Source: a virus
Strand: one strand, 5' to 3'
Length of the DNA: 33,452 nt
IMG/VR virus record: IMGVR_UViG_3300042691_028952
Span: 1 to 33,452 of that record
The notes under the pieces are model-generated. The model searched no databases, had not been told where the DNA came from, and saw only the letters and a list, made by a program, of their open reading frames with translations. Of the stretch, positions 3,195 to 25,211 are shown in pieces (position 1 is the first letter of the stretch; every line of letters begins with the position of its first letter). The position numbers and the translations under genes were made by a program.

Positions 3195-4055
3195 ATGGCC
3201 TGGATCGAATCACACCAAGAGCTTGCGCGGCACCCCAAAGTGCTTCGCCTCGCTCGCTTACTGAAGATCAATAAAGCCCAAGCCATAGGGCATCTGCACC
3301 TTTTGTGGTGGTGGACTCTTGATTACTCTCCGACAGGCGAGTTATCGGCTTTCACCTCTTGCGAATTGGGATCGGCCGCGGAATGGCAAGGCGATGGAGA
3401 TCAATTCAGAAAGGCGCTTGGCGAGTGCGGATTGGTGGATGAAGACGGGTCAATCCACGACTGGCACGACTACGCCGGGAAGCTAGTCGAGGCGCGGGAG
3501 TACGACAGGGCCAGAAAGAGAGCGGATCGGGCTGTCCGGCGGACGTCCACCGGACATCCACCGGACATCCACCGGAAGTCCGGCGTAGAGAACCCAACAG
3601 TACCGGACCCAACAGTACCCAACCAGAGAGGGAGTGAGAACGCGCGAGGTCCGGACCCGTGGCCTGCGGTCGCGGACGTGCGAACAGAATGCCAACTGCG
3701 CGGCATTCCCGAAGCCGTCGGGGAGGCGTTTTGGCTGCACTACGAGGCCCGGGGTTGGCTTGACGGCGCTGGCGTCGCAATCGCCAAGTGGCGCCCGAAG
3801 CTCACAACATGGGCAGCGCGTGATCGCGGCAAAGATACGGCCGGGAAGGCGCCACCAAACGGGGAAAAACCAATCGGGGCAGCACAATCGCTCATGCTCG
3901 CCCAGGAGGAACTAAAGCGCGTCGATGCCCGAATCCGAACCATTGTCGGGTCCTACGACGAGCACCAAACCAAGACCGAGAAAGACCGAGCCGAACTAAA
4001 GGCGCTCCGGGGAAGGGCGGCGGAACTGAAGGAGAAGTTGGGATTTAAGGCATGA
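3195..4055 (+). CDS. Phage replisome organiser / replication initiation protein (lambda O-like role)
   Basis: This 286-residue protein has the phage replisome-organiser N-terminal domain: MAWIESHQELARHPKVLRLA, then LHLLWWWTLDYSPTGEL and a WHDYAGKLVEAR helix (about residues 1-105), a winged-helix DNA-binding fold. A linker follows (114-146) encoded by direct repeats, then a second domain (about 155-215, WLHYEARGWLDGAG...KWRPKLTTWAA) and a C-terminal coiled coil. Such proteins bind origin iterons and recruit the host helicase. The repeats in the linker DNA may be the origin itself, as in the lambda O gene. No helicase loader or helicase gene is visible beside it. The start is one base past the upstream TAA. 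Confidence 0.8.
   Translation: MAWIESHQELARHPKVLRLARLLKINKAQAIGHLHLLWWWTLDYSPTGELSAFTSCELGSAAEWQGDGDQFRKALGECGLVDEDGSIHDWHDYAGKLVEAREYDRARKRADRAVRRTSTGHPPDIHRKSGVENPTVPDPTVPNQRGSENARGPDPWPAVADVRTECQLRGIPEAVGEAFWLHYEARGWLDGAGVAIAKWRPKLTTWAARDRGKDTAGKAPPNGEKPIGAAQSLMLAQEELKRVDARIRTIVGSYDEHQTKTEKDRAELKALRGRAAELKEKLGFKA
3541..3626 (+). repeat. Two sets of iteron-like direct repeats inside the replisome organiser gene
   Basis: Four tandem 11-base units with core GGACATCCACC run from 3541 to 3584; the middle two are identical and the outer two diverge. They are followed by two 15-base units sharing ACCCAACAGTACC at about 3592-3621. They encode the linker of the replication protein. Position and tandem layout resemble the iterons of a lambda-type origin, but the neighbouring DNA is not clearly AT-rich. 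Confidence 0.5.
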
Positions 4056-4753
4056 CACCAAAAAGCAAAACCAAAAGGAACGAAATGAAACACCTCACGA
4101 TCGGAATGGTTATACTCTTGGCCGCGGCAACGACTGCGTTTTGCTTTGGAGAGCAAGGCAAGCGCGAGCAAATTATGCTCGCGGGCCACACCCTCGGCGT
4201 TTTGGCGATGTTTTGCGTCGCCGGCATGGCGCGGCAGGCTGAACTCGCAGACCGCCGGCGCGGGGATCACCTTGCGCCAAACAGGCGAGTTAAGCTCATG
4301 ACCGGGCTCGCGCTGACGCTTGGCCCGACGCTGGCTCACGCGCTCGCACTTTTCATCTTTTTGGCCTGCGCCATCGGTGCGGGCGTCGGGCTGATCGGGT
4401 GGGGAGCGATCAAACTCTGGTCCGCTCTGGTCACGGTCGAGGAGCGAGTCAACGAGCGCAATGATGAGCTTGCGGCCGTGACAGACACGCCGCCGCCGCT
4501 TATTGCCGCCGCAGCGTCCCCAGAGTTACCAGAGTTACAAGCGGCAGCAGCGGACATCGCTACAGTTGCGCCGGGCTCCGATGAATACGAGACCGTCCTG
4601 GTCTCGACGCGCCCATGGTTGCACGTTACGAGGCCCCCGGGCGTGCGGCTTGAGTGGTCCATCAATCTTCTGGATTGGGTCGAGTGGGACGAGCAGCCTG
4701 TCGCAGCTACGTTGCCGTCGGCGTTTTGGAGGGCAAAGCGAGGCGAGGAATGA
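4052..4753 (+). CDS. Multi-pass membrane protein of unknown function
   Basis: This protein is 233 residues from the ATG at 4052 (ATGA overlap), or 222 from the ATG at 4085, which has AAAAGGA five bases upstream and may be the truer start. Hydrophobic segments lie at about residues 15-35, 41-60 and 84-122 (the last long enough for one or two crossings), with an Arg-rich loop between the second and third. The C-terminal 110 residues are soluble, begin Ala/Pro-rich and end with a compact Trp-rich part (LEWSINLLDWVEWDEQP) resembling secreted-protein modules that compare measured text-like repeats, but I cannot assign it. Its place between replication and terminase genes gives no clear role; superinfection exclusion is only a guess. 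Confidence 0.6.
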   Translation: MTPKSKTKRNEMKHLTIGMVILLAAATTAFCFGEQGKREQIMLAGHTLGVLAMFCVAGMARQAELADRRRGDHLAPNRRVKLMTGLALTLGPTLAHALALFIFLACAIGAGVGLIGWGAIKLWSALVTVEERVNERNDELAAVTDTPPPLIAAAASPELPELQAAAADIATVAPGSDEYETVLVSTRPWLHVTRPPGVRLEWSINLLDWVEWDEQPVAATLPSAFWRAKRGEE

Positions 4754-10855: not shown

Positions 10856-11956
10856 ATGGCAATGACTTCACTCAGTAACCCCGCCAGCGTGGCGGATCGT
10901 TACCTGACGTATTTTTCGAAAAAGCTCCTGTACGTCCAGGAGGATGAACTGCGGTTGGACCAGTTTGGCTTGCAGGAAGATCTTCCGTCGCAGGCTGGAT
11001 CGCGCACGATCCGTTTCTTCAAGCCGGCGAAAGCTAGCACCAGTCTCTATTCGAGTCCGACAGCGTCGGATGTTGTCCACGCGCTGACGGAAGGCACGGC
11101 GATTTCCAATTACCGGGAAAACGATTGGACGAAGGTCGACGCGACCCTGAAACAGTACGGTGCAGCGACCAAGATCAGCGACATTGTTACAATGACGGAC
11201 GCTTTCAAGCCCGTCATGCAAAACATCGAGCTTATGGGCCGCGATGCCGCGCTTCACGCGGACACTGTCATCCGCAATGCGCTCGTCGGCTCGACGCATC
11301 CAGACGGGTCCACCACGCCGTTGACGCACAGCAGCAACGGGACGAATGGCTGTGAATTGTTCATAAATTACGACGGCTCTTCGCAAATCGCGAATAGCGG
11401 GACGAGTTCGACGAACTTCACCAACCTTTCCGCCGACACCAAGGACGAAGGCAAGGCAACCCGCCTTTTCGTTCTCGGCGCCGCAACCCGGCTCCGGGTG
11501 AACAAAGCCCCGAAGCTCAAGGGTGGATACGTGTGTCTGCTGCCTCCCCAGGTGGCGCATGACCTTTGCCGGGATGCCGATTACAAGGACGCCTTCAACG
11601 GCCGCGGTGCCGATGGCGTTTACAAGGGCCAAATGGGTCGGATCGACGGGTTCACGTTCGTTGAGCACACAAACCCATTCATCGAAGACGAAACGTATGG
11701 CACCTATGATTCAACCGACGACAACTCCGACGGCCTGATTTATTCGACGCTATTCCTCGGCGCCGGGGCCTACGGAGTGCCGAAGCTCAAGGGGACCAAG
11801 AGCCCGCTGAAGCCTCAGGTGTTCATCAACGATAAGGCGGACAAGTCCGACCCGTTGAACCAGTACGTGATCGCCGGTTGGAAAGCCTACTACATGGCGA
11901 TGGGGCTGGATTCCGCCAACATCGTCGTTGGCCGAAGCAAATCCACGTTCGCGTAA
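10856..11956 (+). CDS. Major capsid protein, N4-gp56 family
   Basis: This 366-residue protein has the HK97-fold layout of the N4 gp56 capsid family. Around residues 78-145 it reads TEGTAISNY, then LKQYGAATKISDIVTMTDAF and ELMGRDAALHADTVIRNAL, the hallmark stretch where a flexible arm leads into the long spine helix. A later VCLLPPQVAHDLCRDADYKDAF and GRIDGFTFVEHTNPF complete the pattern, and the C-terminus has YVIAGWKAYYMAMGLD. Length is normal. GAAAGG precedes the ATG after the hairpin. It is followed by a strong hairpin, consistent with very high expression and transcript ending. Its family supports a podovirus-like assignment. Confidence 0.9.
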   Translation: MAMTSLSNPASVADRYLTYFSKKLLYVQEDELRLDQFGLQEDLPSQAGSRTIRFFKPAKASTSLYSSPTASDVVHALTEGTAISNYRENDWTKVDATLKQYGAATKISDIVTMTDAFKPVMQNIELMGRDAALHADTVIRNALVGSTHPDGSTTPLTHSSNGTNGCELFINYDGSSQIANSGTSSTNFTNLSADTKDEGKATRLFVLGAATRLRVNKAPKLKGGYVCLLPPQVAHDLCRDADYKDAFNGRGADGVYKGQMGRIDGFTFVEHTNPFIEDETYGTYDSTDDNSDGLIYSTLFLGAGAYGVPKLKGTKSPLKPQVFINDKADKSDPLNQYVIAGWKAYYMAMGLDSANIVVGRSKSTFA

Positions 11957-12021: not shown

Positions 12022-13575
12022 ATGAAAACCAATCTTGCCCTTGCGCTCTGGCTGCTGGCGCTCTGCGCGTCACCCGCGGCCACTCATACCACCATCAGAG
12101 TAACGCCTTCCCATAGTCTATCTCAGGCGCTCGCTGACGTGCCCTATCTTGAGGAGGGCACCAGGGCAACCATCGTCGTATCAGCCGGCGATTACCTCAT
12201 CCCAACCAACACGACGACCTTGCTTCGGGACCGGGTCAACTGGCATTTCGAGACGGGGGCGCGACTGCTGTCCGGCAACACATCTGACACCAACTCGCGC
12301 GCATTCTTCTACGACACAAGCGGCGCGGTAACGTCGTCGATTACTGGCTATGGAGAGTTTCACATTTCGAACACCTACAGCGCAGTCCTGATAGTTACGA
12401 ATCCAAGCTCGCGGGTTTCGTTCCAGTACTCGGCGTGGACGGCTGCAACCAATATTATCAACCCAAGCGGGTCCGTGAGCGTGTTGGGACCTGCTGACGA
12501 AAGAACGTTTTACGTTCACAGCAGCCAGAGCAACAAACTGGCCAGCACGATCGCCTCGGCAGGACCTGGCTCGACGATAATTCTTGGGCCCGGGCAGTTT
12601 ACTTTATCCGCGGATGGAATTGTCATGCAAGACAATCAAAGTATCATCGGCCAAGGGATAGGAGTTACTCGCATTAACGGAGCGGAAGGAAGCGAGTCCG
12701 GAATTGCAATGGGGCACAACTGCATCATTAGAGAAATGACGATCGATATGTTTGGGGGGGGCGCTGTTCCAATAACAACAGACACAAGCGCCACCAACGG
12801 ACTGATTGATAGAATCCACGCCATCGGAAACACCGATACGATCATCTGGCAGACGACAAACGGAAACTTGGCGTTTACGGCGCGCAACTTCGTTTCCGAG
12901 GGTCCGTATCATCATATCGTCACAAGTGGCACGAACACATCACTTTTTCGCTTCGTCGACTCCGAGTTTCGTGGGGACATGCTCAAAGACACGGAAGCTG
13001 TTAATGGATCGCGCAACATTAACTCTTTCACGCACAGCGGCGGCACACTGGAAATTACCAGGTGCCACGTCGTCATTTCAAACCCACTCACCGCTGAGAT
13101 CATTATTGCGTCAGGCACAGCGCCAGCTTCACCTTCGTTTCGAATCTCTGGACTGAGCTATGACGTGGCTGTAACAAACGGAGGAATATTCAACCCGTGG
13201 TCATTTGGTCTGTACAGTGTCGGCTCAACTAACGCTTTCGCGGGATACAGTTTAACGCAGCCGGCTCACATTTCGACCAATGCGCTTTACTGGACCAACC
13301 CGCCCGGCCCGTGCGTGGTCTCGATGACATCGACGGCGACGCGGTCAAACTTTCTGCCACACATTGGCTTTCTTGGGCGGCCACGATACCCAGGACTGAT
13401 CGTGACGGTAAAAGACGGCGCAAACAACGCCGGATCCGCAAATGTAACAGTTCTCCCGACAGGAGGCGCAACGATTGACGGTGCCGCAAGTTTCACGATC
13501 AGCACCAACGGCGGTGCGGTCTCGTTCGTAACTGGCGGCGACGGTGGAACAAATTGGCAAATACTCACGCGATGA
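12022..13575 (+). CDS. Exported parallel beta-helix tail-fibre/spike-like protein
   Basis: This protein has 517 residues from the ATG at 12022; an in-frame open stretch upstream overlaps the capsid gene and the hairpin and is rejected. It begins with a clear Sec signal peptide (MKTNLALALWLLALCASPAA). Residues 30-400 have the irregular Gly/Asn/Thr/Ser, beta-rich pattern of pectin-lyase-like parallel beta-helices (SLSQALADVPYLEEGTRATI, then repeated short strands with Asn turns). The last 60 residues (VTVKDGANNAGSANVTVLPT, ATIDGAASFTI) match a C-terminal module common in phage tail fibres and spikes. A receptor-binding or polysaccharide-degrading virion protein is likely. The signal peptide is unexpected, since fibres normally assemble in the cytoplasm. 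Confidence 0.75.
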   Translation: MKTNLALALWLLALCASPAATHTTIRVTPSHSLSQALADVPYLEEGTRATIVVSAGDYLIPTNTTTLLRDRVNWHFETGARLLSGNTSDTNSRAFFYDTSGAVTSSITGYGEFHISNTYSAVLIVTNPSSRVSFQYSAWTAATNIINPSGSVSVLGPADERTFYVHSSQSNKLASTIASAGPGSTIILGPGQFTLSADGIVMQDNQSIIGQGIGVTRINGAEGSESGIAMGHNCIIREMTIDMFGGGAVPITTDTSATNGLIDRIHAIGNTDTIIWQTTNGNLAFTARNFVSEGPYHHIVTSGTNTSLFRFVDSEFRGDMLKDTEAVNGSRNINSFTHSGGTLEITRCHVVISNPLTAEIIIASGTAPASPSFRISGLSYDVAVTNGGIFNPWSFGLYSVGSTNAFAGYSLTQPAHISTNALYWTNPPGPCVVSMTSTATRSNFLPHIGFLGRPRYPGLIVTVKDGANNAGSANVTVLPTGGATIDGAASFTISTNGGAVSFVTGGDGGTNWQILTR

Positions 13576-14564
13576 ACACATCAGATCTTTGTATTCCAGC
13601 CGCGGCCTTGTCCGAATCCGACGAGGGCGGCGAGACTATGGCGCCCGAGCAAGGCGATACCGTGGAAGTGACCATCGGCGGACGCGTGACGCGTGCCGAG
13701 GGCGGAAACATCTACATCCGCCCCGAGACGGCAAATGGGCAACCGATCAAGCCGGCCGGCGGCGAGACATACGACGAGGACGATGAAATGAGGCGGGAGA
13801 TCGGCGCGATGGGCGGGAGTGCGGGCGGCGCGCTGTTGGCACTGCTGATCCTGCTGGTCTTCTCCGGCACGGCCGACGCCCAGGCGCTGCGTTTTGCGGG
13901 AGCGCGAGCAACGTCCGGCGGGGCCGTTTCCAACTGGGTTGGGAGCGTGGTTCGCCAGAACAATGCGATCACGGTCCGATTCACGAACGCGCCAGGCGTC
14001 GGCAACACGCTGCTGATGAACGATCGGACTGTCATTTGGACGAACGATACCCCGGGCGGGGCGACTCACATCCAACGGGGTTCAACTGCTGCGCTTTCAG
14101 CGGAAGCACTTTTCAACTACGCTAGCCTTCGGCCGTTTAGCAACATCGTGAGCTTTGCTGTTCAGGACGGCACAAACGTCGTTTTCGTTTCAGCCACTCG
14201 AACGACCGGAACAGAGCCGCAGATGTGGGGGACGAACTCGTCCGCAGGTCAAACGAACTGGGCGGTTGCGAATGCCACAAATACGATCGGGTCCGCTTCG
14301 CAGGTCCACAGCGTCGAGATCAACAACTTCAGCGGGTCCACGCTGTACCTTATGATTTTCGACAGCGAGACCAACAAGACAGCCAACGCAACCCCGCATT
14401 TCACCGCGGTTCCAATCACCACCGGAAGCGTCGGCGGGAAGGACTGGGGCGACGCCGGGGCGCCGTTCAACTACGGCGTGAACGTCTGCCTCAGCACGAC
14501 ACCTTTCAGCCTTACAAACGCGTCCGCCGGGGGGACGGCAACGATCATCTACACGCAGAAATAA
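13572..14564 (+). CDS. Phage small-protein domain joined in frame to an exported beta-rich protein
   Basis: The full frame from the ATG overlapping the previous stop (ATGA) encodes 330 residues. Residues 1-72 are a soluble, acidic domain (DTVEVTIGGRVTRAEGGNIY, RPETANGQPIKPAGG) like small capsid-region proteins I recall from podoviruses. Residues 85-103 are a signal-peptide core ending TADA, followed by about 225 residues of Asn/Thr-rich beta structure (FTNAPGVGNTLLMND and similar). An internal in-frame ATG at 13788 (Met73) has GAGGA seven bases upstream and would begin a classical signal peptide, giving a 258-residue exported protein. So this is either one fused protein or a gene with two starts making a long and a short product. 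Confidence 0.65.
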   Translation: MNTSDLCIPAAALSESDEGGETMAPEQGDTVEVTIGGRVTRAEGGNIYIRPETANGQPIKPAGGETYDEDDEMRREIGAMGGSAGGALLALLILLVFSGTADAQALRFAGARATSGGAVSNWVGSVVRQNNAITVRFTNAPGVGNTLLMNDRTVIWTNDTPGGATHIQRGSTAALSAEALFNYASLRPFSNIVSFAVQDGTNVVFVSATRTTGTEPQMWGTNSSAGQTNWAVANATNTIGSASQVHSVEINNFSGSTLYLMIFDSETNKTANATPHFTAVPITTGSVGGKDWGDAGAPFNYGVNVCLSTTPFSLTNASAGGTATIIYTQK

Positions 14565-14569
14565 CAGCC

Positions 14570-16276
14570 ATGAAACAGCTGCTCGTTGTAATTGCGTTTG
14601 CTTGGTCCGTCGCCGGTGTTCAAGGGGCATCGTTCACGGCTCCAAGCGGATCTGGAGGAAGCGCCACGAACGCTATAACCAGTATTAACTCGGACACCAC
14701 CTTAACCCAGACGATTACGACTGGTTCAACCGGAACCGACGTCGGAGTGGCAACGTCGTCCGGCACTCACACGATCGCGTTGCCCAGCGCCGGCGCTGCT
14801 GTGCGCGGCGTGCTGTCTTCTAATGATTGGGGGCTATTTGTCGGCAAGCAAAACTCAAATGGGATGCTGACGATTTTGACGACAATGTACGCGACCGGGA
14901 CGGGCTCACCCGAAAGCGCCGTGAGCGCACGCGTAGGAGCAATCTACGCGTGCACCAATACATGCACCGGGTCTGGCCTCTACGTGAAAACGAACGGCAC
15001 CGGAACTACTGGTTGGTGGCAAATTCAAGACACGGTTGGCGTCGGCGGCAGCGGCGGCACCAACTTCCCGCCTGCGATCTACCTCGGCAGCGGGACAAAC
15101 GTGACGCTTGGCGTCGGCGTCCGGCAATTCGTCACGACGGCAAAAGGCGCGACGTTCGGAATCAACTGGATTGGGACGCCGCTCGGCGGTGAAACGGTCC
15201 GTCTCGGCGTGTCAAACACGGCCGCATCGACCATCTACATGACGAACTATGCGGCGAGCGTGATTGCCGACTGTTTTGATCCATACGTTGCGAGCAATGT
15301 CACAGCGTTTGCCATCGCTGCCACATCGACGCGCTTTTTCGATTTCGCCTGGCATTCCAACTTCAGCGGCGGGACTATTCGTCAGGAGCTTCACTGGTCA
15401 TCCGAGAAACAGCAGGAGCTTGCCGTCGCATCCGCTGGGGGAAATGGATTCCTCGCACTATCGACTAACGCGGCCGGCAGTATCGTTACAATCTCAAACG
15501 CATACATACCGCAAGCGTCGTCGATGGTGCTTTCGAACATTGTTGGCTTATCGTCCACGGTGTTCACGAATGTTCCGCTTGGTGGCACCAACATCAGCGT
15601 CAGAACGTCCGGCGGAACAAACTTCATCGACACAATCGGTGAGTTGAACAACTGGTCGTCCTATCCAACGAACGTTTGGAATAGTCGGCAAGGCGGAAGC
15701 GCGACGCTCACAAACCTAGCAGGAACAGGCGCAATAACAAACCGACCGACCATACTCACAAACTCAATCTGGATTAGTGCCGGGGCATTTGCTCCATACG
15801 GTGGTTCGGCGCTAGAAGGCGGACGCAACGGCGCAACAATAGGTAGCTACACCAACGCCGGCTCAACTTACGACCTTTGGGATTTCGACGACACCACGAA
15901 CGAGGCCGTTACGGTAACGTGGGCGCCGCGTGGATTCGCCGGTGACGTGCTTGCCGACATTCACTGGATGACGACGAATACTCTTAACGGAGCCTCCAAC
16001 GTGGTGTGGCAGATTGCAGTGAGTCAAATGGTGAGCAACAATCTTTTCGGCACGTTCAGCTACTTCACAAACAGCACGGTGCGGTTTTGGTCGTCCAACT
16101 CACTGCAAATCGCCAGGCTGCCATTGATCTCAGTCACCAACCTAAGCCCGGCAGAACTGCTCACGCTTCGTATCTCGAGAATGGGAACAGATGCAGGCGA
16201 CACTGCCGCAGGAGATACCAGGTTGCTGGGTGCTAGGATTTCATTCACGCACACAAATTATCTCGGAGGCTATTGA
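14570..16276 (+). CDS. Exported tail-fibre-like protein
   Basis: This protein has 568 residues from the ATG at 14570, five bases after the upstream stop; the longer open frame before it overlaps the previous gene and is a shadow. A signal peptide, MKQLLVVIAFAWSVAGVQG, is followed by a low-complexity Ser/Thr/Gly part. Residues 71-93 (LPSAGAAVRGVLSSNDW, then FVGKQ) match the tail-fibre repeat usually read as PDA-ARG-VST-QTF-G-K. The C-terminal 140 residues (DLWDFDDTTNEAVTVTW, GDVLADIHW, ISRMGTDAGDTAAGDTRLLG) match a beta-sandwich module I recall from podovirus tail or virion-surface proteins. This argues for a virion protein despite the signal sequence. Confidence 0.7.
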   Translation: MKQLLVVIAFAWSVAGVQGASFTAPSGSGGSATNAITSINSDTTLTQTITTGSTGTDVGVATSSGTHTIALPSAGAAVRGVLSSNDWGLFVGKQNSNGMLTILTTMYATGTGSPESAVSARVGAIYACTNTCTGSGLYVKTNGTGTTGWWQIQDTVGVGGSGGTNFPPAIYLGSGTNVTLGVGVRQFVTTAKGATFGINWIGTPLGGETVRLGVSNTAASTIYMTNYAASVIADCFDPYVASNVTAFAIAATSTRFFDFAWHSNFSGGTIRQELHWSSEKQQELAVASAGGNGFLALSTNAAGSIVTISNAYIPQASSMVLSNIVGLSSTVFTNVPLGGTNISVRTSGGTNFIDTIGELNNWSSYPTNVWNSRQGGSATLTNLAGTGAITNRPTILTNSIWISAGAFAPYGGSALEGGRNGATIGSYTNAGSTYDLWDFDDTTNEAVTVTWAPRGFAGDVLADIHWMTTNTLNGASNVVWQIAVSQMVSNNLFGTFSYFTNSTVRFWSSNSLQIARLPLISVTNLSPAELLTLRISRMGTDAGDTAAGDTRLLGARISFTHTNYLGGY

Positions 16277-16277
16277 T

Positions 16278-16778
16278 ATGAGAAAAGCTATTCTGTTTTC
16301 TCTAACCACTCTAACGCTCGCCGTTGCCATCAGGGCATCGACTGTTGTTTTGTTCAATCCGGCTTCGTCGCCAATCACAAATCAAGTGGTTCGGATTTTA
16401 CCAAGCGAAGACACTCTCCGGTGGCTTGGACGCACGGATGTTCTATTCAACCCGTCGGTGCCACCTTCTACCAACGGACTCTGGAAAGTGACCAACGGCC
16501 TTGTGCTCAACTTCACACAAGTTGACCTAGATAGAGTAGCGGCAACAAACGCCATAAATACAGCGAATGCTATAGCTGCATTTGAAGCGTTTGAGCGAAC
16601 TAATGCCGCGGCTGTCTTTGGCACATCCAAAAACGAACAATCTCGCAATTTGCGAATGGCCCTAGAGTTGGTGCTTTCTGAGATCAACATTCTTCGCACG
16701 AACGCCGGTCTTGGAATTCGGACCACGAATCAACTCAACGCTGCCATTTCAAATGCGCTCCTTAACGCTACTAACTAG
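16278..16778 (+). CDS. Exported helical protein of unknown function
   Basis: This protein has 166 residues and starts at the ATG eight bases after GGAGG (16265-16269), the best ribosome-binding site in the exported run. A signal peptide (MRKAILFSLTTLTLAVAIRA) precedes a short beta-rich part with VVLFNPASSPITNQVVRIL and DVLFNPSVPPSTNGLWKVTN, which looks like an internal repeat of VLFNP...TN (about residues 23-80). The C-terminal half is helical and Asn/Ala-rich (NAINTANAIAAFEAFERTNA), consistent with a trimeric coiled stalk. I recognise no family. A fibre accessory or chaperone role would fit its neighbours. Confidence 0.6.
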   Translation: MRKAILFSLTTLTLAVAIRASTVVLFNPASSPITNQVVRILPSEDTLRWLGRTDVLFNPSVPPSTNGLWKVTNGLVLNFTQVDLDRVAATNAINTANAIAAFEAFERTNAAAVFGTSKNEQSRNLRMALELVLSEINILRTNAGLGIRTTNQLNAAISNALLNATN

Positions 16779-17592
16779 CCTGCTGATTATCGCAACGGTT
16801 GCGTCGGCGCAGTTCTTTCTGCCTAGCAGAAGGAAGGCATTTCAAACCGTAGCGGCCGTTGGTGGCTTTTCTCCTACGGATATCTCGGGTCTCGATTTTT
16901 GGGCGAAAGCAGACGCTGAGGTATATGAAGATGCCGGCGGATCTGATGCCGCGGAGAACGGCGATCAGGTTTACGTATGGGGAGACAACAGCGGACTTAA
17001 TCGCGATGCAATCCGAGACGGGACAGGTCCGACATATACGACAGGGGTTTTTAATGGGGGGACAATGCCGTCCATGCGGTTCAATGGAACAACAATGGCG
17101 CTTGATATCAATTCCGTCTCAACTGATTACGTTGGTGCGGATTTGCCTATCTCGATTTTTGTCGTGATCGATTTAGACGGGCCAGCGGCAAATGATTTCA
17201 TCGTGTCTTTTACGAGGACAACGGACTCCGATGTCCTGTTTCGAGCATCTGCAACGGCCACCAATTGGCGATTCCAAAAGCGCGACGACGGAGCCGCGAT
17301 CAAAACAGCGGACGCCGGCGCATCGGACCCGAGTCCGCATGTGGTGGCATTCATCTCAACTGGGATTGCCGTCTCTGTTTACGTCGATGGCGCGCTGTCT
17401 GGCAGTGCAGGGCTCGACGTGGACGTTGGAACAATAACACCAGATCGCGGTCGCATCGGCAGGGGTGGCTACTCCGGATCTGCTTACCTCGATGGAGATA
17501 TAGGGGAATTGATTATTTATGATTCTGCTCTTTCAACAGGCGACCGGAATTCCGTCGAATCATACCTTAAAAGCAGATGGGGAACGCCGTGA
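16753..17592 (+). CDS. Exported LamG/concanavalin-like lectin-fold protein
   Basis: This 279-residue protein starts at an ATG overlapping the previous gene by 26 bases. The signal peptide MRSLTLLTSLLIIATVASA is followed by a LamG-type jelly-roll from about residue 38 to the end. It opens with GLDFWAKADAEVYEDAGG and VYVWGDNSGLNRDA, continues with MPSMRFNGTTMAL, and closes with LDGDIGELIIYDSALSTGDR and VESYLKSRWG. This opening and closing pair is a hallmark of secreted LamG proteins in environmental bacteria, including Planctomycetota and Verrucomicrobiota. Such domains bind carbohydrate or other surface ligands. No catalytic motif is seen. Lower GC than the capsid genes suggests capture from a host-like source. 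Confidence 0.75.
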   Translation: MRSLTLLTSLLIIATVASAQFFLPSRRKAFQTVAAVGGFSPTDISGLDFWAKADAEVYEDAGGSDAAENGDQVYVWGDNSGLNRDAIRDGTGPTYTTGVFNGGTMPSMRFNGTTMALDINSVSTDYVGADLPISIFVVIDLDGPAANDFIVSFTRTTDSDVLFRASATATNWRFQKRDDGAAIKTADAGASDPSPHVVAFISTGIAVSVYVDGALSGSAGLDVDVGTITPDRGRIGRGGYSGSAYLDGDIGELIIYDSALSTGDRNSVESYLKSRWGTP

Positions 17593-20162
17593 GGGCTGCT
17601 GCGCTTGTATTGCTGATGTCTTGCTTTTGCTCGATCGGGGCAAGTCGATACTTCGATCCGGAGCTAACGTCTGGTGCCAACAATGGCACCGACTGGTCAA
17701 ATGCATGGACAAACACACTGGGAACGCTTTCCGGAGGAGACACGTTGTTTTTATCCGGAGGGTCGACGCAGAAAGTCTACACAAATATCATGACCGTTCC
17801 GGATGGGACATTAAACAATTACATCCGCGTAAGAATCGGCCAGGACGCTGGCCATAGCGGTCGAGTGGTATTTTCGAATGCTCGATTGACGCACTCCGGA
17901 AGCGCATCGTGGATTTGGTTTGATGGAAGCAGAAGCGATGCATTCATTTCACCAACTAATCACCAGCAAGTAATTGCCGGTCCGTCGTGTATCACGAACA
18001 ACATAGGGATTTGGATTGATGGATTAGTAGGGACAATCGACAGCGACACAAGTCCGGTGTTGTGGTCGCTTCCGACTGGTGTCGGGAATCTAAAATTCTC
18101 TTACATAGGGGTGACCGGGATGACAAACACGCTTATCCACTCTCGCGGGACCGTTTTCAACGCATCTCGTGGCGGCCGTTACACAAACATGATCTTCGAA
18201 TACCTTTATTTGAACAATAACAGCGGCCAGCAATTCGCTTCGACATCGGACGCGGCAACAGAGCACGACGAAAAGGTCGTCAAGTATTGTTGGATCACAG
18301 GGAACGGAGAAGATCATTTTGAGGTTGGCGGTGGTTGGACGATTCGCGATTCAGTGATCGGCCCGTGTTCTGGAACTTCGGCGCATACTGATTTGTTCCA
18401 GTTCACCGGGAATTACTTCAAGGTCTACAATTGCGACATTCGAGAATCAATGAACGCCGTCCTTCGCTACCAGACACAGGGAGGTGTTTTGAGTCACAGT
18501 TTGATGTTTTTCAACAACATAGTTGCCGAACGATCAGCGCGTGCGAGATTCGGCGGAACGCGGAATGAATACATCCAATTCGTTCCATTCGACTCGCAGG
18601 CATCTGCTGGTGGGTTCCTAAACGGATATTCAAACGTCATTGTAGCTAACAATCTGTTTTACAACTCCATCAGCAACACTTTCGGAACAAATTACGGACT
18701 CGGAGAGTCCGAAATGTGTCGCACGGCATTCTTCGCGATGAGTCGTGGCAATTACGACACGAACAAGGTTATTTGGGATTCGAAGTTCGTAAACAATCTA
18801 GTCATCGACAAGGAGAAGGGAACGAGTTTCGCGGCGACAACAAATGCCAACCCAGCGTTGGGATACTGGAACTACACGACAAATGATTTCTGGGTTGACT
18901 ATAACGTGTTTGCGGGAACGAATTCTGTTTTAACGACTCCAAGGCAAGTAAACTATCATGACGAGGACATTATGGACGGGGTGTCCGATTACTCATTCAG
19001 TAACACAACGAACTATCCAACTTTCAGCCCGCAACGCGAGGCATACTGGAAATTCGAACTCAGCGCAAAAGACACTGTGGCCCTAAACACCGGCTACGAC
19101 CTTTCCGCCTATTTTAATTTCGATTCACTCAACAGGCCCCGCGGCGTCAATGGCGCATGGGACCGTGGGCCACTAGAGTTGCAGACAACGAACCTCATTG
19201 CCTGGCTCACGTTCGATGAATCCGACTGGACAGCGGCGCATAAAATCGTCGATTTCAGCGGATGGGGAAACCACGGGTGGAGGAGGGGGCACACAAACGA
19301 CTATCTCACGAGCATTACAAATTGGCCGTCTCGATTTGCTGCAACCAATACGCCAGGCAGCAATCAGGTTGGATGGGCCGGACACTTTACTTGGACCAAT
19401 TCGACATACGGCACATATACAAATGAAGGCGCCTACCTGGCACTAACGAATACATCCCAATTAACAAATTGGTCACAGGCGTCCGTGATGTGTTGGGCGC
19501 GACACTACCAAGTCACAACGAATAATTGCGACAATCCAGCGTTCAATTATCTCTGCGGACACACTGCCCAGTTTATTTCAGCGGGCGGAGGTGCGGCAGC
19601 TAAACCGTCATCGTGGAACTTTGGGAGAAATTCTTCAGCGCAAACAAGGCTATCAGTCCTGACGAACGGAACAGGGTCGTCAACGAGGGATAAAAACTTC
19701 CCGGACGAAAAAGATCCAACGGAAGAAACGTGGCTCGGAAACACCACCAACTGGAACCACTATGCATGGTCGTGGAGCAACGGGGTGATTCAGATGTATT
19801 TCAACGGGACAAATTGCGGTTCAGCGGACTACTCAGCGGTCACGAACAGGCTCAACCCTGGGATGAACGGCGGTGGCACTCCATGGATTGCCATCGGAGT
19901 CAATCATCACGGCGGCGATCAATGGTTACAAATTCAAGGAGGCGATGACTATCCAAACAACGGCTGGCTCCATGGCATTATTGACGATGTCCGCATTTAC
20001 ACGGGCGTCACACTCACAGCGACAAACATCTTGGACATTTACAGGGAACCGCAATACAGATCCGCGTATGAGGAATTCTTGATCGGGGCAGAGTCGGAGC
20101 CGGCAACTGTTACGACGGCTGTTTCACGGCAAACAAAACTCAGGGGAATCAAACTACGATGA
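17589..20162 (+). CDS. Exported parallel beta-helix plus LamG protein
   Basis: This protein has 857 residues from the GTG at 17589 (GTGA overlap), or 861 from the ATG at 17577; the GTG gives a cleaner signal peptide (RAAALVLLMSCFCSIGA). Residues 19-530 open with RYFDPELTSGANNGTDWSNA, a form typical of right-handed beta-helix proteins, and continue with Asn-rich repeats such as YLYLNNNSGQQFA and NLFYNSISNTFGTN. Residues 535-820 are a LamG-like domain (LIAWLTFDESDW to IIDDVRIYTGVTLTATNILD). It is the largest exported protein here and is probably a surface-binding or polysaccharide-processing factor, either a spike or a secreted product. GC content is visibly lower than in flanking structural genes. 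There is no catalytic signature I can name. Confidence 0.75.
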   Translation: MRAAALVLLMSCFCSIGASRYFDPELTSGANNGTDWSNAWTNTLGTLSGGDTLFLSGGSTQKVYTNIMTVPDGTLNNYIRVRIGQDAGHSGRVVFSNARLTHSGSASWIWFDGSRSDAFISPTNHQQVIAGPSCITNNIGIWIDGLVGTIDSDTSPVLWSLPTGVGNLKFSYIGVTGMTNTLIHSRGTVFNASRGGRYTNMIFEYLYLNNNSGQQFASTSDAATEHDEKVVKYCWITGNGEDHFEVGGGWTIRDSVIGPCSGTSAHTDLFQFTGNYFKVYNCDIRESMNAVLRYQTQGGVLSHSLMFFNNIVAERSARARFGGTRNEYIQFVPFDSQASAGGFLNGYSNVIVANNLFYNSISNTFGTNYGLGESEMCRTAFFAMSRGNYDTNKVIWDSKFVNNLVIDKEKGTSFAATTNANPALGYWNYTTNDFWVDYNVFAGTNSVLTTPRQVNYHDEDIMDGVSDYSFSNTTNYPTFSPQREAYWKFELSAKDTVALNTGYDLSAYFNFDSLNRPRGVNGAWDRGPLELQTTNLIAWLTFDESDWTAAHKIVDFSGWGNHGWRRGHTNDYLTSITNWPSRFAATNTPGSNQVGWAGHFTWTNSTYGTYTNEGAYLALTNTSQLTNWSQASVMCWARHYQVTTNNCDNPAFNYLCGHTAQFISAGGGAAAKPSSWNFGRNSSAQTRLSVLTNGTGSSTRDKNFPDEKDPTEETWLGNTTNWNHYAWSWSNGVIQMYFNGTNCGSADYSAVTNRLNPGMNGGGTPWIAIGVNHHGGDQWLQIQGGDDYPNNGWLHGIIDDVRIYTGVTLTATNILDIYREPQYRSAYEEFLIGAESEPATVTTAVSRQTKLRGIKLR

Positions 20163-20356
20163 GCAAAGACCAAAAAACCGAAACGGCATCATGGCTCCGC
20201 GGCGACCTCCCGACATGGGTCGCGGTCGTCCTGGTTAGTTTTATCGGATGGGGCGGCAAGCAAGCTTACGACCATTTCACGACCACTTTGGTCAAAGTCG
20301 TCGACACGATGCACAGCCACGACGTGCGGATCTCGATACTCGAAAAACGGCCATGA
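20159..20356 (+). CDS. Small single-pass membrane protein (lysis-region candidate)
   Basis: This 65-residue protein starts at an ATGA overlap. A polar N-terminus with WLRGDLP leads into a single membrane segment at about residues 18-38 (TWVAVVLVSFIGWGGKQA), then a short helix ending HDVRISILEKRP. The short helix resembles the DVRI-LE ends of phage holin-associated or XhlA-like proteins, though in those the order is reversed. Together with the next gene it could form a holin/antiholin or holin/spanin-like pair. No assignment is certain. Confidence 0.5.
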   Translation: MSKDQKTETASWLRGDLPTWVAVVLVSFIGWGGKQAYDHFTTTLVKVVDTMHSHDVRISILEKRP

Positions 20357-20613
20357 AAGAAACGCTGATCAAACTCTTGACCGGCGCACTCGCCAAGGGT
20401 GTCCGCTACGCTTTGACGATGGCCGGAGGGGCTGGAGTGGTTGACGGCGCTACGGGTGAAACTTACGAGCCCGAGAAACTCGCGGCGGGAATCGCCGCGG
20501 TCGTTGTTCCGTTCATCTGGTCAATCTGGGAGGACCGCGTCAAGAAGCGTAAAGCCGAATCCAACCCTTTGCAGGAAATGCCAACAACACCAACAACACC
20601 AAAAACACCATGA
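20353..20613 (+). CDS. Putative holin
   Basis: This 86-residue protein starts at an ATGA overlap. The N-terminal helix (MKETLIKLLTGALAKGVRYA) precedes a Gly/Ala turn with VDGATGETYEPEKLAAG and a membrane segment (IAAVVVPFIWSIWEDRVKKR, about residues 46-65) with a basic end, the pattern of several small phage holins. The C-terminus is a PTTPTTPKTP tail encoded by three 9-base repeats. Its position beside another small membrane protein supports a lysis role. No endolysin gene is recognisable nearby. Confidence 0.55.
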   Translation: MKETLIKLLTGALAKGVRYALTMAGGAGVVDGATGETYEPEKLAAGIAAVVVPFIWSIWEDRVKKRKAESNPLQEMPTTPTTPKTP

Positions 20614-21101
20614 AAACCATACTCGCACTCATCACGCTCGCACTCGTCACGTTCGCCACGCAGGCGGCTCCGGTTCTCGAATTGAAGCAGGAACCGCGGA
20701 TGTCCGTTGAAACGCTCGCTGCCATACGGTCCGTAAACATCGGCGACGGCGAGCAATATGGCGCCGGGCTGGGCCTGGGCTACAAGTTCAACTCGTACGT
20801 GACCGGCTGGGCCCGCGCGCTCGCCTACGAAACGGACAACTGGCGGGGTTCGACCATTGACGAGGCGAGCCTGCTCGTCGAAGCGCGACTCTTCAACAGC
20901 GGCAACGGCTCGTTCCGACTCGCGGCCATCGGTGGGGCCGATCGGGACTTCGACGCGCAAGACTGGGGGTTCTCCGTCGGACTCCGGGCAGGGCTTTCGC
21001 TGACGCCAAATTTGGGCTTGGTGGCCGAATCCAGGATCCGCGCGTGGTTCGACCAAGAAAAAGATCTGATTTCAACCGCCGGCCTAGCCTTTTCGTTCTG
21101 A
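20610..21101 (+). CDS. Phage-encoded outer-membrane beta-barrel candidate
   Basis: This 163-residue protein starts at an ATGA overlap. It begins with a signal peptide (MKTILALITLALVTFATQA), whose hydrophobic core contains a 15-base tandem duplication (20622-20651) giving LALIT-LALVT. Residues 40-163 alternate hydrophobic and polar residues in repeated strands (YGAGLGLGYKFNSYVTGWAR, SLLVEARLFNSGNGSFRLAA), and the chain ends in Phe (LISTAGLAFSF), as outer-membrane barrels do for BAM recognition. About eight strands would fit. Phage barrels such as lambda Lom are lysogenic-conversion or surface proteins, so superinfection exclusion or receptor masking is plausible. A periplasmic beta protein is the alternative. 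Confidence 0.6.
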   Translation: MKTILALITLALVTFATQAAPVLELKQEPRMSVETLAAIRSVNIGDGEQYGAGLGLGYKFNSYVTGWARALAYETDNWRGSTIDEASLLVEARLFNSGNGSFRLAAIGGADRDFDAQDWGFSVGLRAGLSLTPNLGLVAESRIRAWFDQEKDLISTAGLAFSF

Positions 21102-21364
21102 TGCCAGCCTACGAATACCAACAGGGCGGCAAGACCATCGTGCGCGTGCTTCCAGTGGAGCGCCGGGACGATTTCCCCGGGCGGGTTGTGATCCCGAGCA
21201 CGCTGCACGTCTGCCCACGGGGCGAACCGACGCAGGGCGATCAAGTCCTGCGCGGGTTCTATCGGTGCGAGGAGAAGAACGGCACGGCTGCCGTCCGGAA
21301 CACGGAGAAAGCTCTCGGGTTGACCGCGGGCAAAGTGAAAGACCTATGGAAACACGACCGCTGA
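21101..21364 (+). CDS. Small conserved phage protein (MPAYEY start)
   Basis: This 87-residue protein starts at an ATG sharing one base with the previous stop (TGATG). It reads MPAYEYQQGGKTIVRVLPVE, then FPGRVVIPSTLHVCPRGEPT and a C-terminal helix (VRNTEKALGLTAGKVKDLW). The start resembles FmdB-type small regulators (MP-YEY), but the zinc-binding Cys-x-x-Cys pairs are missing. I recall similar short phage proteins without a known function. It overlaps the next gene by 19 bases. Position in the lysis/fibre region does not define a role. Confidence 0.5.
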   Translation: MPAYEYQQGGKTIVRVLPVERRDDFPGRVVIPSTLHVCPRGEPTQGDQVLRGFYRCEEKNGTAAVRNTEKALGLTAGKVKDLWKHDR

Positions 21365-22656
21365 AAAAGAACGACGGCCGGGCATATCTCGGCCTCCTTG
21401 GACTGTTCGCGCTGGCTGCGTTCGTCGTGCTGCCGCTGGCTATCGCGTTCGGCGCCGACATCTCGCCAGGTTACACATTCACCAGCGGGGAGAGGAATGT
21501 CACACATACCAAACTGAACAGCTCGGCCGCTGGCACGATCAACACGTCGTTTTACAGCGGCAAAAGCTCGGCCGGGTCGGACCCGAATACGGCCTTTACG
21601 TTCCTTCTGCACGACACATCCCTTGACGTGTTCAAAAAAACAACTTTGGCAGTCGGCGTTTTCGACCACGCCGGATTGCTTGCAAGTCGCACGGCAAAAA
21701 CGGCTCCCGTCCTGGCCGATGCACTGATGATCGAGGACTCGGCGGCGGCGAGCGCATACAAACGAATGACCGCGACGAACTTCCTTTTCGGCGGCACGTC
21801 GACCACGGCCCCGACCAATGAAACGACATTCCCGGCGCTTCGGGGCGGGGCGCTTGGGGCGATCACGCTATCGAATATCGTCGGGGGCCTGACGGCTCAC
21901 CTGCTGCCCACCAACGGGGACGCGATCCTTGTTCTGACCGAAAACGGAGGCCGCGCGGTAAAAACGCTTTCCTTGGCCCAGATGATCACCGGGGCCACCT
22001 ACGCGACGACGAACGCCGGGACAAACTCCTCGTTGATCTGGGATGGGCAGTTGCGCGCCATCATGGAGACAAACCGGACCTTCGGCCTTGCCCAGTCATC
22101 GGCGCCAGCAACCAACGATTGGCTTCAAATGCTGGTCGCCGGCTCCTTGCGCAAAGTCATTTTGAACGATCTCCGTCTGCCGCTTGGCTATCAGAACATC
22201 GTTCAATCTACCTACACCGGGACAACCAACATTGTCTGCGTCGGGAACTGGTCGAACGTCACGACGATCGGAACGAGCACGCTTTCAAACGCTATCACGC
22301 CGCGGGCGTCGAGCAGCAAGATCCTTGTGCGGCTCGTCCTGCACGGATGCGGCGCGGGTAACAATCAGCCGGGGTTTGCGCGGGTTCTGCGGGACGGGTC
22401 CGCGATCGGCGTTGGCGACACAGATGGGTCAAATCGGACGGAAGCCGGCACGATTTTGCCGAACTCGACCGATCCTGAAACAACGGTGTGGGAGTGGCTT
22501 GATTCACCGGCCACAACTAGCGCCGTCGGGTACAACGTGCAGGTCACAGCCACCGCGAGCACGACCGTTTACATCAACCGAACGAGCAACGACACGGACA
22601 ACGCAAACCATGGGCGACTTGTGTCCACGCTCACACTGACGGAGATCCTGCAATGA
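21346..22656 (+). CDS. Tail-fibre-like protein with signal anchor
   Basis: This protein has 436 residues from the ATG at 21346, which lies inside the end of the previous gene. A charged start is followed by a hydrophobic stretch (about residues 15-37, AYLGLLGLFALAAFVVLPLA) ending FGA, a signal anchor or cleavable signal. Residues 40-70 (GYTFTSGERNVTHTKLNSSA, NTSFYSGKSS) and TAKTAPVLADALMIEDSAAA match a phage tail-fibre N-terminal pattern. The last 130 residues (ITPRASSSKILVRLVLHG, DSPATTSAVGYNVQVTATAS, VYINRTSNDTDNANHGRLVS) match a common beta-sandwich found at the end of phage tail proteins. Its stop overlaps the neck protein start (ATGA), tying it to the virion operon. Confidence 0.7.
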   Translation: METRPLKKNDGRAYLGLLGLFALAAFVVLPLAIAFGADISPGYTFTSGERNVTHTKLNSSAAGTINTSFYSGKSSAGSDPNTAFTFLLHDTSLDVFKKTTLAVGVFDHAGLLASRTAKTAPVLADALMIEDSAAASAYKRMTATNFLFGGTSTTAPTNETTFPALRGGALGAITLSNIVGGLTAHLLPTNGDAILVLTENGGRAVKTLSLAQMITGATYATTNAGTNSSLIWDGQLRAIMETNRTFGLAQSSAPATNDWLQMLVAGSLRKVILNDLRLPLGYQNIVQSTYTGTTNIVCVGNWSNVTTIGTSTLSNAITPRASSSKILVRLVLHGCGAGNNQPGFARVLRDGSAIGVGDTDGSNRTEAGTILPNSTDPETTVWEWLDSPATTSAVGYNVQVTATASTTVYINRTSNDTDNANHGRLVSTLTLTEILQ

Positions 22657-23615
22657 ACCTTGCCACCATGGCCGCCTTTGTCTGCGGCAAGGTTCGCCGC
22701 TCTGACGCTGGGAGCATTGCCAAGTGTAAGGAATTCCTTCGCCAGCGGTACCAGGTGCTTTACGATGAAAGCCTCTGGCGGGATTCGGTGTGGGCGTACG
22801 AATTCACATTCACGCCAAACCAGACGGATAAGCCAGAGAGCTACGCAGCGACCTACTTCCTGCCGTCCGTTGTCGATCGTCTTTTGGCTCTTCGGACCAC
22901 TGATAACTTCATGCGCAGCGTGGCCGAGGAAACGCTCTACCGGTCGAGCATCGACGAATTTGCCCAGAGCGGGACGCCTGTCCGATTCACAACAGGGGCG
23001 CCCGTGGTGGCCATCATCCCGGAGGATTACCCCTACAGCGACGCGCTTTTCGTCTCGGCGGCCGTTGCGGATGCCGGGATCGAATATTCCGTCACATACA
23101 TCGACGCCAACGGGGACAGGCAATCAATCTCTACCACGTTCGGCGCAGGCTCACAGGTGGCCGAGGATGTTCGCGTCCTTGAACGTGCCACAAAGCTTGC
23201 CACGACCGCGGCCGTCACGTTCCAGGGGTTCGAGGCTGCCGTTGACATCATCTCGGCAGCAGCAGCGGCTACAGCTTGGCCGGCGCGCACCCCGATCAAG
23301 CTCATCCCGATTCCCACCGCGGCCACCGTGTTCCGCGCGCTGGTCAAAAAGAAAGTCCTGCCGCTTGAGGATGATAACGACGTACCAGAGCTGCGCGGCG
23401 TAGACAATGCGTTGTTGGCAATGGCGCAAGGGGACATGCTGGAGCGTGAGCGGCAATACGGGAAGGCCGCCCAAAAGCACGGCGAAGGACTCGCGCTCCT
23501 GCAGGACCTGAAGAACCGCGCCTGCTACCAGGAAGACCAGCAAATGCAGATCGTTCCAGAAGTGACCGAGCCATCCGGCCAAGTTGAAGAGTGGAGCGGA
23601 AAAAACTACTGGTGA
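22653..23615 (+). CDS. Neck/tail-adaptor-like structural protein
   Basis: This 320-residue protein is encoded just before the beta-propeller tail gene. Residues 1-60 (MNLATMAAFVCGKVRRSDAG, FLRQRYQVLYDESLW) and the C-terminal GVDNALLAMAQGDMLERERQYGKA (about 260-285) resemble podovirus head-tail adaptor or tail-tube proteins. The centre is beta-rich with an inserted domain (about 125-215, IEYSVTYIDANGDRQSISTT). It has no signal peptide, unlike the genes upstream. It probably joins the portal to the tail hub. The exact homolog (gp4-like, gp11-like or other) cannot be named from sequence alone. Confidence 0.65.
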   Translation: MNLATMAAFVCGKVRRSDAGSIAKCKEFLRQRYQVLYDESLWRDSVWAYEFTFTPNQTDKPESYAATYFLPSVVDRLLALRTTDNFMRSVAEETLYRSSIDEFAQSGTPVRFTTGAPVVAIIPEDYPYSDALFVSAAVADAGIEYSVTYIDANGDRQSISTTFGAGSQVAEDVRVLERATKLATTAAVTFQGFEAAVDIISAAAAATAWPARTPIKLIPIPTAATVFRALVKKKVLPLEDDNDVPELRGVDNALLAMAQGDMLERERQYGKAAQKHGEGLALLQDLKNRACYQEDQQMQIVPEVTEPSGQVEEWSGKNYW

Positions 23616-23618
23616 CCA

Positions 23619-25211
23619 ATGGGACTCCGCTTCATCGACACGCTTGACGACGCGACGCTAGACGCCGAGCAAAAGAGCTGGGCCGGCGGTGCGGACGAAT
23701 TTCAGACGCCAACCATGCTCCCGCCGAACGTGGGCGGGCAGCTCGTCAACTGCATCGTGGAAGACAACGGCCGGCCGCGAAACCGGCCGGGGGCTGACCC
23801 GCTTGGTGACGCCGTCCTTGACGCTGGCCAACGCGTGCAGGCGCTCGCATACTTCGACACGCCGTCGCTCGAGTATCTTTACGCCTCGATCAATCTGTCG
23901 CTGCGCCAGTGGACCGGGGCTGCATGGTCGACGATTGCGGCCTACCCGTTCGGAGCTAACTCGATCGTTGACATGGTCCAGGGCGATGACCTGCTTTATT
24001 GCACGTCCGGGACCGGGGAGTGGTTCACCTACAGCGGATCGGCGTGGAGCGCGGGCCTCGGCTCCGGGGCAGGCGCGACGGGCGATCCGCCAAACGGCGC
24101 AACGATCCTTTGCTGGCACACAAACCGGATGTTTGCCACGGGCGCGATCGGTAGCTATTACGATCAGATTTACGTCTCATTTATTGCTGGCGCCGGGGCT
24201 AACCAGTGGAACCACACGGACTTCGCCTTTCGTGTCGGCCGCGGCGAGGGCGAGCGTATCGTTGCCATGGCAAGCGGCCGTGGAAACTGGCTGTTCGTCG
24301 GCAAGGAAGGATCGATCTTCGCCGTCGACACTGACCCGGCTGCCACGACTGCGGCCGCATGGTTCATCTATCGAGTGTCGAAAGACCTTGGCGTGATTGG
24401 TAAGCGTGCAATGTTGATGGCAGGCTCCTCTCTCTGGGTCATCTCGTCCGATCTGGCGCTTCGCGAGATCCTGCCGTCAACCGTCGAGGATACCCCGTTT
24501 GAAATCGCCCCGCCGGCTAGTGAGCCAGCCAAACCGTATTTCGACCGCATCAACCGCGCGGCTCAGTCGAAGATCGTCCTGCACAAGTACGGCCGATACC
24601 TCATGGCCGCGGTGCCGTTGGATGCGGCGACCGAGCCGAGTCACGTCCTTGTCTGGAATTTGCGCCTTCGAGCGCCTGACGGCCGCCCTGCGTTCATTGG
24701 TGTTTGGACTGGATGGACGCCCACCGTCTTTGCGACGACGCGCTTTGCCGGCGTGGAGCGGTTCATCATCGGGGATTCGGCCGGCTACGTCAACGAGTGG
24801 AAGGACTACGAAGACCAAACCGAGGATGCCACTTACCAAGACAACGGCGAGGACGTTCTTTGCACGATCCGCGGTCGGTCGTGGGACTTTGGGAGCCAAC
24901 GCAATCCGAAGGACGCGGAGAGCTGCGAGCTGCAATTTGTGGACTCGACGGCGGACGTTGACGCCGTGGCCTACTTCGACGGCGAAGAGCAACTGCGCTG
25001 GAGTCTGAGCCTCGAGGAAACGCAAAACGAGCTTCCATTGGATCTTCCGTTTGATTTGGCCGTTCTTGGTCCTACCAGAGCACCTAAGAACATGGATGAT
25101 CTGGTTGAATTCCGTGAAATGTATCTTGAGATCGTGCAGACTACGGCGGGCCGGGTGGAGTTGAAATCAATGGCGGCCAGCGCCTTTGCCAACACGCAGG
25201 CAAACGAATGA
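23619..25211 (+). CDS. Beta-propeller tail hub / stabilisation protein
   Basis: This 530-residue protein starts four bases after the adaptor stop. Repeated blade-like segments are visible: LEYLYASINLSLRQWTGAAW, LLYCTSGTGEWFTYSGSAW, NRMFATGAIGSYYDQIYVSF, GNWLFVGKEGSIFAVDTDP and RFIIGDSAGYVNEWKDYEDQ. This layout matches the P22 gp10-type stabilisation/tail-hub family, which plugs the portal and holds fibres or the needle. The N-terminus has a short MLPPNVGGQLVNCIVEDNG-type lead seen in this class. The C-terminal 110 residues are a separate beta domain. It fits the tail order adaptor-propeller. Confidence 0.75.
   Translation: MGLRFIDTLDDATLDAEQKSWAGGADEFQTPTMLPPNVGGQLVNCIVEDNGRPRNRPGADPLGDAVLDAGQRVQALAYFDTPSLEYLYASINLSLRQWTGAAWSTIAAYPFGANSIVDMVQGDDLLYCTSGTGEWFTYSGSAWSAGLGSGAGATGDPPNGATILCWHTNRMFATGAIGSYYDQIYVSFIAGAGANQWNHTDFAFRVGRGEGERIVAMASGRGNWLFVGKEGSIFAVDTDPAATTAAAWFIYRVSKDLGVIGKRAMLMAGSSLWVISSDLALREILPSTVEDTPFEIAPPASEPAKPYFDRINRAAQSKIVLHKYGRYLMAAVPLDAATEPSHVLVWNLRLRAPDGRPAFIGVWTGWTPTVFATTRFAGVERFIIGDSAGYVNEWKDYEDQTEDATYQDNGEDVLCTIRGRSWDFGSQRNPKDAESCELQFVDSTADVDAVAYFDGEEQLRWSLSLEETQNELPLDLPFDLAVLGPTRAPKNMDDLVEFREMYLEIVQTTAGRVELKSMAASAFANTQANE

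Follow-up and report, generated by a model that had tools for sequence, protein, structure and literature searches.

The locus described here raises the question of why eight genes that lie among the structural genes of a tailed phage encode predicted Sec signal peptides, given that textbook tailed-phage assembly is cytoplasmic. The run occupies positions 12,022 to 22,656 of IMG/VR virus record IMGVR_UViG_3300042691_028952, a metagenomic contig of 33,452 bases that was analysed in full and is referred to as the window; genes are named by their start positions (Table 1). The 10.6 kb stretch is best explained as the putative fibre and decoration slot, together with lysis genes, of a P22-like podovirus. 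Sequence comparison supports the predicted signals, their attachment to homologs of signal-less phage fibres, a conserved junction and a recurrent pattern across lineages. Given that signal-bearing and signal-less orthologs have this junction in common, we suggest that the proteins are fibre or decoration homologs that have been turned into Sec pre-proteins.

Predicted Sec signals in the slot between capsid and adaptor

All eight coordinates (12022, 13572, 14570, 16278, 16753, 17589, 20610 and 21346) correspond to real open reading frames (ORFs), with start codons that are predictions. The scoring rule for N-termini asks for a basic n-region, an uncharged hydrophobic core of 9 residues and a cleavage site with small residues (A/G/S type), and a score of at least 3 counts as a pass. 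Of 11 well-known E. coli signal peptides it recognised 10, missing PhoA, and it passed 10 of 482 antisense decoy ORFs. All eight window proteins passed, 13572 through an internal ATG at 13788, versus a mean of 0.06 of 8 and a maximum of 2 of 8 in 2000 whole-protein shuffles. Each has the n-region, core and -3/-1 residues of a type I Sec signal peptide, the n-region of 21346 being long (~13 aa), and the N-terminal segment is the sole strong hydrophobic stretch in every case except 16753, which has one more. A preliminary description of the locus had listed eight plausible Sec signals and took rejection of most of them by signal predictors as a refutation. The calibrated rule accepts them all, with corrections for 17589, which has a GTG start overlapping the preceding stop, and for 13572, where the signal is internal.

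The signals are concentrated in one part of the genome. Relatives were found with the capsid protein as query, and we take the slot to be the genes between capsid and tail adaptor. Within the clade of the window (window, G002, G004, G005, L002 and L005), 16 of 49 slot genes carry a signal versus 1 of 106 genes elsewhere (Fisher 1.9e-8). The counts become 20 of 49 and 2 of 106 when alternative starts are allowed, and 14 of 28 and 1 of 64 among genes of at least 150 aa. Wrong starts or chance hydrophobic N-termini might be suspected, as the starts are predictions and a Shine-Dalgarno (SD)-like motif was found at only 3 of the 8 signal-bearing genes. Few genes anywhere in the window have such a motif, however (4 of 23 core genes and 1 of 11 in the slot), and the background of signals outside the slot is close to zero. 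Thus we rejected this explanation, which we consider very improbable, on the basis of the shuffles, the slot enrichment and the wider census described next. Export of the eight proteins is well supported as a prediction.

Slot signals are absent (0 of 52) from a set of signal-less, mostly distant relatives (G006, G007, G008, G010, G011, G017, L015 and L018). Those from IMG/VR (the six G loci) have the same slot, and several share with the window the adaptor-proximal fibre N-domain, in them of the MPDLTGGTTF type, and the decoration domain. A wider capsid-based census found no slot signal in most loci, many of them incomplete, and none of the loci lacking slot signals has signals elsewhere. Slot signals reappear in L086, L063, L064, L113 and L124, and singly in other loci; some census signals belong to lipoprotein-like or other small proteins. 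In G013, outside the census, 5 of 11 slot genes have signals versus 1 of 37 others. On a tree built from the capsid protein, some branches of which are long, the signal-bearing loci fall on separate branches, with at least two label changes.

Small signal-like proteins (174-202 aa) also occur directly after the capsid gene in three loci (L086:5784, L113:1332 and L123:10977). A further small protein of this kind, G005:11515-12114, lies between terminase and portal and is related in sequence to the small protein of L086.

Orthologs with and without a signal

The adaptor-proximal fibre, 21346, has orthologs of both kinds. In G002, G003 and L061 the protein is signal-less and begins M|ADITPGYTF (one sequence type), and more distant relatives have signal-less starts such as MPDLTGGTTF, MPDITKGRTW, MPDLTRGHTF and similar. 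Where a signal is present it abuts the same residue: AFG|ADIS in the window, SYG|ADIT in G005, VGA|ADIT in L086 and SPA|ADLT in L063. L064 has ATA|GDLT, read from an internal start within a reading frame that also takes in the gene upstream. The -3/-1 rule is satisfied at the same column in all five. The preceding signals of the window, G005, L086 and L063 differ and look unrelated; between the window and G005 the signal is 20% identical, versus 78% for the first 60 mature residues. Five junctions that agree exactly, signals that diverge quickly ahead of conserved mature starts, and the near-absence of signals in relatives together suggest that the fibre homologs carry working signals that are cleaved, and not remnants. 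Translocation and cleavage would follow from this reading, and the conserved junction supports them indirectly.

Alternatively, host secreted genes may have been captured along with their signals, which would then be passive remnants. The alpha-galactosidase, malectin plus beta-helix and LamG bodies found among these proteins do resemble bacterial exported proteins. Against this, the adaptor-proximal and decoration proteins belong to phage families that are signal-less elsewhere, and passive remnants would not preserve differing signals at one junction. We regard host capture as improbable.

The decoration domain, the C-terminal part of 13572, shows the same predicted on/off signal pattern. 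It is signal-less in G007, G017, L063 and L064. In the window, G005 and L002 it lies behind a hydrophobic segment and is fused in frame to a short capsid-adjacent protein, whose counterpart is a free gene in most relatives (G002, G004, L005, L007, G006 and G013 among them). Thus 13572, first taken for one exported protein, is a composite of two genes. A short conserved gene joined in frame to the signal-bearing gene after it was seen for one pair in these three phages and for another pair once (L064:7742-8992).

This arrangement bears on the proposal that cytoplasm-assembled virion parts keep uncleaved hydrophobic N-terminal helices, for anchoring or for membrane contact at infection. In 13572 the hydrophobic segment follows a cytoplasmic-type domain, a fusion repeated in G005 and L002, and fibre N-termini usually attach to the virion. 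Elsewhere, however, the signals precede the point where signal-less orthologs begin, in five cases with residues at -3/-1 that permit cleavage, and they diverge far faster than the mature part. Retained helices are possible, above all in 13572, and unlikely as an account of the whole run, though slightly less so than host capture. The conserved cleavage junctions therefore disfavour the anchor option of the preliminary description, 13572 excepted.

Signals are also combined with exchangeable bodies. In L063 and L064 the signal precedes a Gly-rich segment borne by different bodies: L064:4011-5996 is a signal-bearing slot protein with a Pfam alpha-galactosidase (Melibiase) domain, and L063:3297, from its neighbour on the tree, has the N-terminal segment in common with it and a different body.

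Homology to fibre or virion proteins was found for four of the window proteins. The C-terminal half of 21346 matches fibre-type proteins of P-SSP7, HTVC010P (a Pelagibacter phage) and Melnitz (a Methylophilales phage) at ~32% identity, whereas the N-terminal parts differ; the proteins checked in two of these phages, P-SSP7 and HTVC010P, have no signal. The LamG protein 16753 matches phrog_10356, a virion structural protein family (1.8e-10), and has a signal-bearing homolog, L086:7190. Residues 104-149 of 14570 (46 residues) are 52% identical to the Klebsiella phage KOX1 tail fibre, and this protein also matches phrog_21909 (0.0062). The C-terminal part of 13572 is homologous to slot proteins of relatives.

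We consider 12022, 16278 and 17589 to be fibre-like by position and composition. The first has no Pfam or PHROG match; its residues 51-139 are 38% identical to the signal-bearing G005:17692. The beta-helix earlier proposed for it was not confirmed, with no Pfam match and a low-confidence AlphaFold model (pLDDT 34; 36 for 21346), and searches of solved structures returned nothing relevant. A Pfam beta-helix protein does occur in the fibre slot of L002. Of the two LamG domains suggested before, that of 16753 holds and that of 17589 (PF13385, 0.0017) falls below the Pfam cut-off.

A possible route through the periplasm

We propose that the surface-appendage proteins of this phage are made with an N-terminal signal peptide and would cross the host inner membrane by Sec. 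Signal peptidase would cut the signal, for 21346 at the point where signal-less homologs begin, and the mature proteins would fold in the periplasm. No outer-membrane-crossing or sorting domain was recognised with Pfam and NCBIfam, a weak negative, and the proteins would thus most likely wait in the periplasm until lysis. Particles leaving the cytoplasm at lysis may then pick up the fibres, which may be glycan-binding or enzymatic. The destination of the barrel 20610 would be the outer membrane, where it may have a Lom-like role or help in exclusion or lysis. Taken as a whole, from export and cleavage through periplasmic folding to joining of the virion at lysis, this pathway is the account we favour, at slightly less than an even chance; translocation, cleavage, periplasmic storage and attachment at lysis are the steps that we infer. 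We put forward more tentatively the broader proposition of a tailed-phage lineage that completes its virions outside the cytoplasm, with a fibre set that is exported by Sec and processed, stays in the periplasm and joins the particles at lysis.

Several observations weigh against this proposal. Attachment of tailed-phage fibres is generally placed in the cytoplasm. The close relative G002 has a signal-less adaptor-proximal fibre, so this protein does not need to be exported. The cytoplasmic-type domain and hydrophobic segment that share one ORF in 13572 look more like an anchor unless the start at 13788 is used. The signal rule is home-made, and cysteine content gave no clear disulfide argument.

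In the main rival account the proteins are exported to function at the envelope or beyond it: fibre modules that never join the virion would be put to new use, in the periplasm, in the envelope or as secreted proteins, as adhesins, depolymerases or receptor blockers altering the infected cell or its surroundings. The barrel 20610, in the same run, is clearly an envelope protein by family match and signal, and one homolog has the alpha-galactosidase domain noted above. There is also a precedent in Lom of phage lambda, a beta-barrel of the outer membrane that has a signal peptide and whose gene lies among the tail genes (PMC12309495). On the other side, the orthologs sit in a slot of virion genes, mostly lack signals and match fibre-type or virion proteins, and the lack of a recognised outer-membrane-crossing domain mildly disfavours surface display. 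We consider this rival unlikely, and the most serious of the alternatives. Lysogenic-conversion genes were rejected as an explanation, as several of the orthologs in relatives belong to the structural slot and have no signal.

The barrel resembles Lom in being an outer-membrane barrel with a signal among fibre genes. The Pfam scan of 20610 gave PF13505 and a weak attacin match and not a Lom model. As an outer-membrane barrel, 20610 would need no special explanation for its signal. Its homolog in G005 (34%) is at the same place, and in both phages the gene sits between holin-like genes and the adaptor-proximal fibre gene. In other relatives lipoprotein-like genes are found in the lysis area (L002:7913 and L086:8815). 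The earlier idea that fibre-type podovirus proteins pass the inner membrane thus gains from the slot enrichment, the several lineages and the junction orthologs, and loses 20610, which is not a fibre.

Among other phages, filamentous phages make their coat proteins with signal peptides, and these proteins enter the virion from the membrane. Filamentous phages are non-tailed and extruded through the envelope, whereas the genes studied here are those of a double-stranded DNA (dsDNA) podovirus. The tailed phages crAss001 and Cellulophaga phage phi14:2 have comparable blocks of fibre or structural genes; as controls, the crAss001 fibre and tailspike proteins and phi14:2 structural proteins tested had no signal, the latter being marked in their record as found by mass spectrometry. 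We know of no dsDNA tailed phages with virion maturation by the proposed route, and the open-access literature yielded no account of tailed-phage fibres bearing Sec signals as a system; novelty is therefore provisional.

If fibres were Sec-exported, assembly, lysis timing and host-range modules would be tied to secretion by the host. Nature supplies orthologs with the signal off (G002) and on (the window, G005, L086 and L063) with which this could readily be tested. Annotation of receptor-binding proteins would also be affected, as a fibre-like gene with a signal peptide might otherwise be mistaken for host contamination or for a lysogenic-conversion gene.

Gene order and virus type

The window encodes, in order, a DNA methylase (1975-2718, C-5 cytosine type, PF00145), terminase-like (5638), portal-like (7462) and scaffold-like (9755) proteins and the capsid protein, followed by the run in question, the adaptor-like and gp10-like proteins and more virion-type genes.

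Table 1. Features from the capsid gene to the gp10-like gene of the window
Feature	Position	Strand	Evidence
Major capsid protein, left border of fibre slot	10856..11956	+	phrog_1357 5.8e-34
517 aa, signal peptide MKTNLALALWLLALCASPAA, then strand-rich fibre-like body	12022..13575	+	signal score 3.52
Composite ORF joining a short capsid-adjacent protein, a signal or anchor segment and a decoration domain	13572..14564	+	internal signal score 4.03; ATG 13788 behind GAGGA motif
568 aa, signal peptide MKQLLVVIAFAWSVAGVQG, then fibre body with LPSAGAAVRG segment	14570..16276	+	signal score 3.84
166 aa with signal peptide MRKAILFSLTTLTLAVAIRA	16278..16778	+	signal score 3.42; no family match
279 aa, signal peptide MRSLTLLTSLLIIATVASA, then LamG domain	16753..17592	+	PF13385 1.8e-9, above Pfam cut-off
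857 aa, GTG start, signal peptide, long fibre-like body, weak LamG near C-terminus	17589..20162	+	signal score 3.38
Small membrane protein, holin-like by position	20159..20356	+	one hydrophobic segment from sequence; no family
Small membrane protein, holin-like by position	20353..20613	+	hydrophobic segments from sequence; no PHROG
163 aa, signal peptide and small outer-membrane beta-barrel	20610..21101	+	PF13505 5.7e-7, above cut-off
Short conserved cytoplasmic gene ahead of fibre gene	21101..21364	+	46-52% identity to G002:13414 and G005:23951
436 aa fibre, signal METRPLKKNDGRAYLGLLGLFALAAFVVLPLAIAFG before ADISPGYTF	21346..22656	+	signal score 3.88; signal present or absent among orthologs
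Tail adaptor-like protein, right border of slot	22653..23615	+	kept at same place in relatives
P22 gp10-like stabilization protein	23619..25211	+	23.5% identity, 4e-16, to 'phage stabilization protein' of uncultured podoviruses

Two traits point to a P22-like podovirus: a capsid protein that matches a phage major-head family and a gp10-like stabilization protein. The order of large terminase (TerL), portal, scaffold, capsid, adaptor and gp10-like genes, with fibre genes beside structural genes, agrees with the P22-like structural module of portal, scaffold, coat, gp4- and gp10-like proteins. Unlike that module, the window has fibre and decoration genes between capsid and adaptor, many with Sec signals.

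A first scan of genome contigs with a capsid profile recovered no relative, and a second gave 13 weak loci, mostly short C-terminal stretches, none of which was accepted as indicating a host. The style of the proteins presumably recalls Verrucomicrobiota, which we have not adopted as the host. The gene at 4052-4753 has N-terminal membrane segments and is the sole signal match outside the slot in the window at a score of at least 3; its C-terminal segment recalls what we take to be a motif of Verrucomicrobiota exported proteins. A low-complexity, Gly-rich reading frame at the contig start (1-100) is possibly an assembly edge effect. In two relatives, proteins encoded among the tail genes (G002:18716 and G005:30013) begin PFFxTGxPxSRTxWL, a start not seen in the window, and resemble sulfotransferase-type P-loop proteins.

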